A DNA stretch of 64,000 bases from positions 1,674,001-1,738,000 of the forward strand of contig CP085832.1 in NCBI GenBank assembly GCA_020809705.1, read 5' to 3'. How positions within the stretch are numbered: position 1 is the stretch's first letter; the number at the start of each line of letters is the position of its first letter. Below the pieces are notes generated by a model that did no database searches, had not been told where the DNA came from, and saw nothing but the letters and a program-made list of their open reading frames with translations. The position numbers and the translations under genes are program-made. The stretch is from Calonectria ilicicola. Its lineage: Eukaryota; Ascomycota; Sordariomycetes; Hypocreales; Nectriaceae. Below are positions 39,585-60,365 of the stretch, in pieces.

Positions 39585-42192
39585 GGTGATGAGGTTCTTG
39601 TGACTATTGTGCGATTCTAGAGACACCACATGGCAGAAGCACGCGGGAGACGGGAGACAAGACAGGGCAACAGCTTCTATTTCAACATCGAGGTTTCATC
39701 TGTCCATCCATGTAATATTTAACCTAAAATCAAGGAATGACGCACAGATTTAGCCGTGAGGCCTAAATCTTCCCCGATACTGCTGTGCGCGCTTGTGTGC
39801 TGGCAGGTTCCTGCATTCAGCTCTGACATCACCGCTCCGCGACCCTGCAATTGACTTTGCGTGATTGGACATTTTGAACACCCCACTTGACAACAAGCAT
39901 ACATGCAACCAAAACACTTTGGCGAATTAATGCGCCCTTCATTCTTCAGTCAGATTCCAACTTGAATTTCTTTATTTTCTACTTTGATTTCATTTTTTAC
40001 ATGCATCTACAAAGCTCCAGACTAGTCACGTCTTGGTCTTTGACTCGTGGGTCTAGTCTAGTGGTTTCACATCACAACATGACATCATCACTCTCGTCCC
40101 GTCTTACCTTGTGCCGTCTGATCCGGATGCGATCCCGACCATCATGCATAATAGCTTCAGAAACTTGGTTAATCGCAATTCGCCCTCTCTAAGTGGGGTC
40201 AGCCACAAAGTATCTAGATTCCGTCTTACCGTTGTGTCAGCCACTGAATGATGCGTCTTGACCGCAAGACCTGCCCAATATGTTAGCATAAGTTCCATCA
40301 AGTACAAGGAAAAGGAGAGACTTATCCCCTGCCGGCGGGGGGTTATCCTCCACACCATTTCTGGCGAGAGGATAACCAGGACTGCCTCATCCGATCCGGC
40401 CTGTCCAAAAGATCCAAACATAGTCAACTCAGCCTTGAACATTGGCACTCAGGTCTCTTCAATCAAGCTCGCAACTAAACCTCTTGGCAGCACCAGACAA
40501 GCACGGAGCTTTGACACCAACTCGAGATGGGTCCCGGCGCTACTTCGAATATCAATTGCAAGCCATGTTTCAGATAATGAGCGAACATCCAAGTCACAAG
40601 GCACTCGTGCGTTGTCAATTCCATCATGGTCTCGCGTCTTCGCAGATTTGATACCGCCGAAAGTCGAGCCGGTGCCTCTCACACCAGAGATTCAAGACAA
40701 GCTAAGCAAGCTCCTTCTGTTTGATTCGCGCTGCCAACAAGGACTAGTTTTTGTTTCCTCCCCATCGTGTTCAAGGAACAGCAAGGAGGGCATTCACGGG
40801 TGGACAAAATACATCCCTAAAAACCACCCTTTCATCTCAGACCATCCTTTTCAGGATGAAGTCGAGGAATCCGTCCGAACCATTTGGTACCGAACGGTGG
40901 ACTGGCGCCCCACTCAATTGATGGATTGCGACCATCGACTGGAGGTTAATGCGCTTGGTCAGGCCAGACGCGGAAGCGTCACACACCAATGGCTGTTGCC
41001 GGGGCGTGGTCATGGGAGCGACAGAGCCAGAAGAGAAGGCAGATGCAGCGAAGTTCAATCACATCCATGGTGCAGCTTCGAAGGACCGGGAGCTCTACCA
41101 GCCGGCAATAGTGGTCAGTTGATGAATTCTTTCCGTATGTATCCACGGCATCCCCGCTGCACCTGCTGGAACTAACCAGCAAGCGGTTCCGACAGGCGAT
41201 GACTCGGGAGTAAAGTGACAAAGAGTATGCAACTGACTGTTTGAAGCCATTCCGGGGCTCCACTTCTTGGCTGCCTGGGTATGATCGATTTCAACTACAC
41301 CGTCCAGACTCCACAGGGCCGACCACACCTCCATGACGGCCTACTCTTGACCAATGTTCGAGTTCCAGTAGAAAGGGCTGACGAGCGCCCTCGGGCCAGA
41401 GGATCTTACAGCAATGACTCATGGCACCTCTCTCTCGCGTACCACAAAGGTAACTGGAATGTCTTCCACGTCCGTCCGTCTACACAGCACCTCAAGTCAA
41501 TCGTCCTGCTTGTTCAGCGGGCGCGTCTCAACTCTCGGGCTTAGCTGACTTAGAAGACACTTCCAACGACAGAGCGCAAAGCTTGTGAACCAGATATCTG
41601 CTTAGGGTTAAGTTCCGAAACTCGTTCCCCCCGGCTAGGTTGGGTCGTCTCGCAATCAGACGGCAGTGTGAGCCACAATAATTCCCCTGCGGCATACAAC
41701 GAGGTCCTGATACAGGCTCGAGAGCGGCATATTGTGGGTAGGCCAACCTGTGAGGGGGTCTATAGTAGACATTCCTTTCGGAAAACGAGAGACGGAGGAC
41801 TGTGGGGGAGGCGTAACGCGTGTTGTAAGGTGAAGGAGCTGATGCACAGTCGTATTAAGAATCTCCAGGATGGTGACATGCGGGCATTTCGATGGGTCTT
41901 TCAGGCAAGAGTCGCGTCTCAAACGTAAAACCCAGGAATCGATCATAAACACGAATGGTTGATGGTGGAGGTTGAACTCGCGGTTCCCTGCCACCGAACG
42001 CGAAGACATGCAAGTCGCGGACCCACTTTCGGCATGGCAAACACGGTAGCACGTGACAGCGGCAAGTGTCTCACAGTGCGATTTACAGTGCTGTTAACAC
42101 ATGAAGACCCAAGCAGAAAGAACCAAAGAGAATAGCGCCTGACAAATCTTTTTGATTCCAACCTCAGATACTCTGAGGTCCTGCTGGGAATC
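39585..42192. other. Intergenic with unresolved open frames
   Basis: About 2.6 kb between the divergent APP1-type gene and the Rtp1-like gene. A forward frame stays open for 305 codons (40258-41175), and shorter frames (for example 40449-40682, 40104-40448 on the minus strand and 41281-41544 on the plus) also read like protein in places. None has a motif I recognise, and no splice model ties them together. Could hold a decayed gene; nothing firmer can be said. Confidence 0.35.
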
Positions 42193-59595: not shown

Positions 59596-59737
59596 GGCCG
59601 CGTGGCCTAATGGCTAAGGCGTCAGATTTCGGTCTGTTTCGATTCTCTGAAGATTCCAGGTTAGTACATTGTCAACAATAAGCAATGTTTGAAATTAATT
59701 CTAACTCCTCATAAAGGTTCGACTCCTGGCGTGGTCG
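59596..59737 (+). tRNA. tRNA-Arg(UCG) with a 12-nt tRNA intron and a 57-nt insertion in the T-stem
   Basis: Removing 59633-59644 and 59660-59716 leaves a perfect 73-nt cloverleaf. Acceptor stem GGCCGCG (59596-59602) pairs with CGTGGTC (59730-59736); D-stem GCCT/AGGC; anticodon stem TCAGA/TCTGA; loop with U33 and anticodon TCG (59629-59631); variable loop AGATT; T-stem CCAGG/CCTGG around TTCGACT; discriminator G. The 12-nt insert sits after position 37, the canonical place for eukaryotic tRNA introns. The 57-nt insert interrupts the T-stem at its last pair. The A box is intact, and a complete B box (GGTTCGACTCC) is kept at 59716-59726. A T-rich Pol III terminator follows at 59739. Whether a functional tRNA is made depends on removal of the second insert. 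Confidence 0.85.
59660..59716 (+). other. Spliceosomal-type intron inside the tRNA-Arg gene
   Basis: Exactly 57 nt, beginning GTTAGT and ending CATAAAG, with a TTCTAAC branch-point-like element about 15 nt before the 3' end. It is inserted in a CCAG/GTTC context, a typical proto-splice site. Size, ends and branch site match the short introns of the argininosuccinate synthase gene 2 kb away. It does not match a tRNA intron in position or structure. Confidence 0.7.
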
Positions 59738-60286
59738 CTTTCTTTTTCTTTTTTTGCACTTTTTTTCCTTTCAGGTTGACATGTTATTCTGATATGTTGC
59801 ATCGAATCGTGTACTATGGGTTGTAGCACATCAATTTGAATTGACACGATTAGACCAACCAATCTTTCCCATGCCTTAGAATGACTCCGTATTTGAGCGC
59901 GTCTTGTCTCAAAAAGCTATCAACGTTGACGGCATAATCATTGAGAGGTTATCGACAAGTCTACCTGTGCTGAATTAAAAAAAAACCAGCCGCAGGCCGA
60001 CCAAGATTTCCCCAGAACCACAACGACGACAGACACAATCAGTACCCAACAAGTTCAATTGGTCTTCTTCATTTTTTGGAGTAAAAATATCGCCAGCTTA
60101 ATCCTCTTTGCGGTGCTATGTCAAAAAGAGAGCAGCGGAAAGGCGCATCAGGGATTGCAGTCAGAAGTGAAGATTATCACCAATTCATTAAATATTTTGG
60201 CTAGACAGCATGAGCAAAAAGATTATTTATCCCTTCATAAAAAAATTCAAACTTCCCATGCCGTGAATGTGCAAAAATAAAAGTTT
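59738..60286. other. AT-rich spacer between two tRNA genes
   Basis: About 550 bp including the Pol III terminator of tRNA-Arg (T runs at 59739-59755 and 59760-59766). A 73-codon forward frame (60059-60280) is lysine-rich and probably chance. Nothing else seen. Confidence 0.45.
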
Positions 60287-60365
60287 TGCGTCGTACGGAA
60301 CTCGAATCCGTGCCTCAACTTATCACAATGGAAGAGTTGAATCCTAACCCCTAGACCAACAACGC
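60287..60365 (-). tRNA. tRNA-Gly(UCC) with a short intron
   Basis: Read on the minus strand: acceptor stem GCGTTGT pairs with ACGACGC; D-arm GTCTAGGGGTTAGGAT; anticodon stem CAACT/AGTTG; anticodon loop with U33 and TCC, then an extra 7 nt (TTGTGAT) at the canonical intron site after position 37; T-arm ACGGA-TTCGAGT-TCCGT. Mature length about 72 nt. Both internal promoter boxes are intact. Anticodon assignment assumes the stem is caact/agttg; a one-base shift would lose U33. Confidence 0.8.

Follow-up and report, generated by a model that had tools for sequence, protein, structure and literature searches.

Can a nuclear transfer RNA (tRNA) gene hold an intron of the kind that is removed by the spliceosome? 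This question is raised by a tRNA-Arg(UCG) gene on the plus strand at positions 59596-59737 of a 64,000-nt stretch of the Calonectria ilicicola genome (hereafter the window; C8:1674001-1738000 on contig 8, in a genome of 69.9 Mb and 12 contigs analysed as a whole). The gene was found to have two interruptions, an anticodon intron and an insert in the T stem. Spliceosomal introns are treated as features of genes transcribed by RNA polymerase II, with the U6 small nuclear RNA (snRNA) gene as the best known exception among RNA polymerase III (Pol III) genes, and tRNA introns are handled by a protein endonuclease. Judging from the sequence comparisons below, we consider it likely that a working tRNA-Arg(UCG) gene carries here, at T-stem position 52/53, a short spliceosomal intron of the U2 type. 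The parts of the gene, in window coordinates, are as follows.

59596-59632 (+): tRNA-Arg(UCG) exon 1, 37 nt, with the acceptor 5' strand, the D arm, the anticodon TCG at 34-36 and G37; identical in the nine genes found of this isodecoder
59603-59613 (+): A box TGGCCTAATGG, read from the sequence against the familiar consensus
59633-59644 (+): ordinary anticodon-loop intron, 12 nt, at position 37/38; the second insert-bearing gene has the identical intron, seven uninterrupted genes have one of 17 nt
59645-59659 (+): tRNA exon 2, 15 nt, ending in CCAG (T-stem positions 49-52), placed by sequence comparison
59660-59716 (+): T-stem insert, 57 nt, GTTAGT...CTAAC...AAAG, read as a putative spliceosomal intron with donor GTTAGT and acceptor AAG
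59701-59705 (+): CTAAC, branch-site-like element; its candidate branch A, at 59704, precedes the final base of the insert by 12 nt; in the second gene CTAAT at 11 nt
59716-59726 (+): B box GGTTCGACTCC, which runs across the 3' splice junction, read from the sequence against the familiar consensus
59717-59737 (+): tRNA exon 3, 21 nt, placed by sequence comparison
59743-59755 (+): T-run TTTTTCTTTTTTT, read from the sequence as a Pol III terminator by the usual role of such runs

The removal of the 57-nt insert, which lies between T-stem positions 52 and 53, together with the 12-nt intron left 73 nt that folded into a full cloverleaf and were named tRNA-Arg(tcg) by ARAGORN; this confirmed, with exact coordinates, what an earlier reading of the letters by themselves (the sequence-only reading) had proposed. 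The cloverleaf, the anticodon, the A and B boxes and the terminator expected of a functional gene were all present. The same reading had described the B box as kept, and it was indeed intact, but solely because the insert's final G takes the place of G52. In Rfam scoring, the window gene reached 37.8 bits, as compared with 55.1 bits for an uninterrupted copy and 38.2 bits for a second interrupted gene.

This second tRNA-Arg(UCG) gene (L002, C8:3569331-3569480) was revealed by a search of the fungus's own genome and lies 1.84 Mb from the window gene. It carries a 53-nt insert at the very position seen in the window gene, an identical 12-nt anticodon intron and identical exons (73/73 bases). UCG genes numbered 11 in what was found, a lower bound like all copy numbers given here for this tRNA; nine had identical 73-nt exons (37 + 15 + 21), two of these nine bearing the insert at the one position, and the remaining two (L040 and L041, assigned to UCG by eye) had a different T stem, appeared by eye to be another isodecoder and were without insert. 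Between the identical exons the anticodon intron took two unlike forms, one of 17 nt in the seven uninterrupted genes (L003-L008 and L039, one with a single change) and one of 12 nt in the two interrupted genes. This common 12-nt form, distinct from the 17-nt one, makes it probable that the interrupted pair are sister genes and that the insert is older than their split. Outside the gene, ungapped identity between the two loci was near chance, i.e. 13/50 and 91/300 upstream and 20/50 (T-rich) and 87/300 downstream, and no BLAST match beyond the gene was better than E 0.27. The description of the locus, in the sequence-only reading, as a gene under no coding constraint was misleading, since 73/73 exon bases had stayed unchanged.

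The two inserts were then compared with each other. Both start with GTTAGTACA, have CTAAY at 11-12 nt before the end and finish with AAG, and TTCTAA(C)TCCT was seen near the end of both. From position 10 to the branch site, the insert bodies were no more alike than shuffled sequences (fraction of shuffles reaching the score, 0.73); the whole inserts were more alike than shuffles (fraction 0.005) because of the insert ends, namely GTTAGTACA and the final AAG. The chance of finding a branch motif 5-35 nt from the end of both inserts was about 0.025 for CTAAY, 0.036 for CTRAY and 0.10 for YTRAY. A CTRAY branch site at 6-36 nt before the acceptor, the range given in PMC5832005, was matched by the CTAAC at 12 nt and by the CTAAT at 11 nt. 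Constrained exons, common splice signals and a drifting intron body, as observed here in two sequences, are at the sequence level the pattern of a spliceosomal intron.

Furthermore, each of the two U6 genes found in this genome turned out to have an intron of canonical appearance; the two sites differ and flank the ACAGAGAAGAT box:

L072 1486-1540 (C1): U6 intron, 55 nt, GTAAGT / ACTAAC / CAG, branch-to-end distance 12
L073 1555-1612 (C3): U6 intron, 58 nt, GTAAGT / ACTAAC / CAG, branch-to-end distance 11

When these introns were taken out, the conserved ACAGAGAAGATTAGCATGG region was obtained, and inside each of them a Pol III B-box-like stretch was present (GGTTCGAATCC / GGTTCGATTCC). The tRNA inserts measure 57 and 53 nt with branch-to-end distances of 12 and 11, and the U6 introns 55 and 58 nt with distances of 12 and 11. 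A run of TTTT inside an intron might be a Pol III stop; the window insert has no run of four T, and TTTT was absent from all four introns of Pol III genes (two tRNA inserts and two U6 introns), as compared with 10 of 17 coding introns inferred in this genome, a noisy set chosen by coding continuity, donor and branch pattern. The gene of the signal recognition particle (SRP) RNA aligned over its whole length and showed no intron. According to PMC8917221, the spliceosome of Schizosaccharomyces pombe excises the U6 intron from a transcript made by Pol III, and the required reaction therefore exists in fungi. Spliceosomal introns within Pol III genes, with which the sequence-only reading was not familiar, were thus already known from that U6 gene. 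The proposal of that reading, a spliceosome-type intron in a tRNA gene transcribed by Pol III, gained support from the matching position and signals of the second gene, the drifted insert body and the canonical introns of both U6 genes, as far as sequence can tell.

Taken together, these data suggest a nuclear tRNA served by two unrelated splicing machines, with the T-stem intron falling to the spliceosome and the anticodon intron to the tRNA endonuclease, an arrangement kept for a long time in two dispersed genes; we hold this to be reasonably probable. The interrupted gene would be transcribed by Pol III from the A box at 59603-59613 and the B box at 59716-59726, with a stop at the T-run at 59743-59755. 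The spliceosome would recognise GTTAGTACA, the branch A at 59704 would attack, and the cut would fall after AAAG, by which the 57 nt would leave and CCAGGTTCGACTCCTGG and the T arm would be restored. The 12-nt anticodon intron would be excised afterwards by the tRNA splicing endonuclease, because this enzyme requires a folded tRNA body, and a mature, functional tRNA would presumably result.

Several observations weigh against a spliceosomal intron and have to be set beside these data. The donor, GTTAGT in both copies, is one base off the fungal GTRWGT, the base preceding CTAAY is T and not R in both inserts, and the acceptor is AAG and not YAG in both copies, YAG being a strong preference and not an absolute rule. 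Fungal U3 introns have YAG acceptors in all but one case, GTRWGT in 88/136 canonical donors and RCTRAC in 129/138, as reported in section 11 of PMC5832005; in the noisy set of 17 coding introns mentioned above, the base at -3 of the acceptor was C in 9, T in 5, G in 2 and A in 1, so 1/17 ends in AAG. In the second gene another AG, upstream of the acceptor, follows the branch A by 7 nt. With AGGTT at both of its ends, the insert allows six registers, only one of which gives GT...AG; any insertion that duplicates AGGTT yields such ends, so they are not independent evidence. When the first 9 and the last 3 bases were trimmed and the branch region was included, the alignment of the inserts was no better than that of shuffles (0.47), and the case for a kept branch region is therefore made by the motif itself. 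The insert is known from two sequences only, and the identity of the exons could be partly maintained by gene conversion.

Other explanations of the insert were weighed against the same evidence. Both interrupted genes might be dead tRNA copies whose ancestor was inactivated by an old insertion, giving no mature product and persisting by chance or for their promoter (TFIIIC binding) alone. With seven uninterrupted genes at hand the interrupted two would be dispensable, and their splice signals are below the best consensus; yet both have kept 73/73 exon bases unchanged, although drift has brought the similarity of flanks and insert bodies down to about chance level, and the boxes and terminators are intact. 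Gene conversion would moreover have to renew exon pieces of 37, 15 and 21 nt and yet spare the distinct 12-nt intron and the insert, and we regard dead copies as unlikely. Retention of the insert in a tRNA-like RNA with another role, or its removal by another nuclease, appears very improbable to us; the fold predicted for the window copy allows T-stem pairing across the insert, but neither fold is remarkable (z -0.92 and -1.36), the two copies fold differently, and the insert body is not conserved.

A further explanation, in our view quite unlikely, is an ectopic intron of the tRNA type, processed by the tRNA splicing endonuclease and ligase, the route to which a review assigns the atypical introns of the red alga Cyanidioschyzon merolae. 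The tRNA-Ile(UAU) of that alga has introns at 12/13, 37/38 and 53/54, as described in PMC9602550, and the last of these adjoins the site reported here. L002 allowed a relaxed bulge-helix-bulge in its GT-AG register and the window copy in a different one; when the window insert was shuffled, 85 of 2000 sequences gave such a form as well. Neither insert had a strict bulge-helix-bulge, and the window copy had no relaxed form when placed in its GT-AG register. This test was weak, for both anticodon introns, used as positive controls, failed it, and it does not separate the explanations since ordinary anticodon introns fail too. Absence of the motif does not exclude the endonuclease either, because many ectopic introns of the Guillardia nucleomorph are likewise without a defined motif according to the review (PMC3978253). 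What the two inserts have in common is the letters of donor, branch and acceptor, and the same review states that recognition by the eukaryal endonuclease co-evolved with position 37/38; both points weigh against the endonuclease.

The age of the insert was considered separately. The sequence-only reading had inferred a freshly gained intron and had proposed a search for near-identical 57-nt sequences elsewhere in the genome. A fresh gain was rejected, since two dispersed, long-separated genes have the insert in common, with flanks and insert bodies diverged to about chance level. A mobile or introner-like element was rejected as well; the genome search with the insert returned one match at E<=10, which was the insert itself, and the body of the second insert differs. 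That search was too coarse to recover even the insert of L002 and may likewise have overlooked a source copy that had diverged.

The genome was also scanned for further interrupted tRNAs. The patterns CTAAY and CTGAY followed by AGGTTCRANYCC gave 10 and 8 hits at 17 sites (controls, 11 and 6), two of them the window gene and L002; none of the other 15 sites matched an Rfam family at E<=1 or was called by ARAGORN. From the donor side, the pattern TCGAACCT..ACNNACC gave 43 matches (controls, 162). Thirty of these were read with their flanks, and the window gene was the sole tRNA by eye; the other 13 comprised L002, one match in L088 (no Rfam match) and 11 counted by pattern only. The pattern TTGAACCT..ACNNACC gave 63 matches (controls, 148), one in L076 and the other 62 counted by pattern only, and a pattern for position 53/54 gave 14 (controls, 31), again as pattern counts. 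For position 51/52 there were 23 matches (control, 1), about 20 of which appeared by eye to belong to one repeat family, and 0/4 sampled matched Rfam. This family is a dispersed tRNA-like or SINE-like (short interspersed nuclear element) repeat with CTAATTTTTCAAAAGGCCGAGGGTTCGAACCC, e.g. at C2:7620660-7620691 and C12:80932-80963, and two sampled copies of it matched no Rfam family at E<=1.

In its run by the tRNA tool, ARAGORN missed both interrupted genes; once introns were permitted, it reported the window gene, though with a false 54-nt anticodon intron, and missed L002 again. In the whole-genome search with RF00005, in which 63 of 2542 candidates were scored, neither interrupted gene was among the matches listed, and because of this fraction tRNA genes interrupted elsewhere could be missed. 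Exon 2 joined to the donor gave 0 matches in a contig collection without fungal genomes and in viral contigs, the latter being uninformative because the uninterrupted T arm also gave 0 matches there. Three further observations were made in the window. On the minus strand at 60287-60365, ARAGORN called tRNA-Trp(CCA), and with introns allowed tRNA-Gly(UCC) with a 7-nt intron. A telomerase RNA gene of the Ascomycota family is located at 40337-41821 (-), with 313 bits; together with a CRM1 fragment, for which PDB 4fgv (from Chaetomium thermophilum) was the best match, it indicated a filamentous ascomycete, and no 5.8S rRNA was detected. About 30 nt downstream of the tRNA gene, at 59768-59777, CTTTCAGGTT forms an acceptor-like motif after a T-rich tract, possibly by chance.

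Introns of two comparable kinds are already on record: spliceosomal ones in U6, a Pol III gene, and ectopic ones in the tRNAs of C. merolae and of the nucleomorph of Guillardia theta. The U6 introns of S. pombe and of the present genome resemble the tRNA inserts in having a Pol III host gene, a short GT-AG intron and a CTAAC branch, and those of this genome also match them in size and branch distance. They differ in that the host is an snRNA; moreover, the U6 introns of this genome contain the B box and have GTAAGT/ACTAAC/CAG as signals, against GTTAGT/TCTAAY/AAG and a B box across the junction in the case of the tRNA inserts. The ectopic introns of C. merolae (53/54 in tRNA-Ile UAU) and G. 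theta likewise lie in the tRNA body besides 37/38, but the review describes them as bulge-helix-bulge introns (PMC3978253), whereas mRNA-type (messenger RNA) donor, branch and acceptor letters were read here. According to the C. merolae paper, little is known of the mechanism by which ectopic introns are removed, and the anticodon intron leaves last (PMC9602550), which matches the order proposed here. Fungal U3 small nucleolar RNA (snoRNA) genes, as presented in PMC5832005, are also non-coding RNA genes with ordinary GT-AG introns, and intron-bearing and intronless paralogues occur in one genome; they differ in that the host is not a tRNA and in their YAG acceptors in all but one. The canonical nuclear tRNA introns at 37/38 are present in the very same genes (12 nt, and 17 nt in the other seven) and differ from the insert in position, length and signals. 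Eukaryotic tRNA genes are described as limited to one intron in the tRNAscan-SE 2.0 paper (PMC8450103). No report of a spliceosomal intron in a tRNA gene was found in the open-licence literature, as covered by titles and starts of abstracts among the matches listed, and the phrase "spliceosomal intron(s) in tRNA" had no occurrence in the open-licence literature searched.

Because the insert looks and evolves like an mRNA intron, making these tRNAs would need both the spliceosome and the tRNA splicing enzyme. Similar genes may sit unannotated in public genomes, since gene finders would tend to miss them. If the spliceosomal origin of the insert is true, the spliceosome can define an intron within a short, highly structured Pol III transcript, and spliceosomal introns can persist in genes without a coding role. 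The supply of tRNA from both genes would then be tied to spliceosome capacity, in a fungus that has introns in its U6 genes as well.
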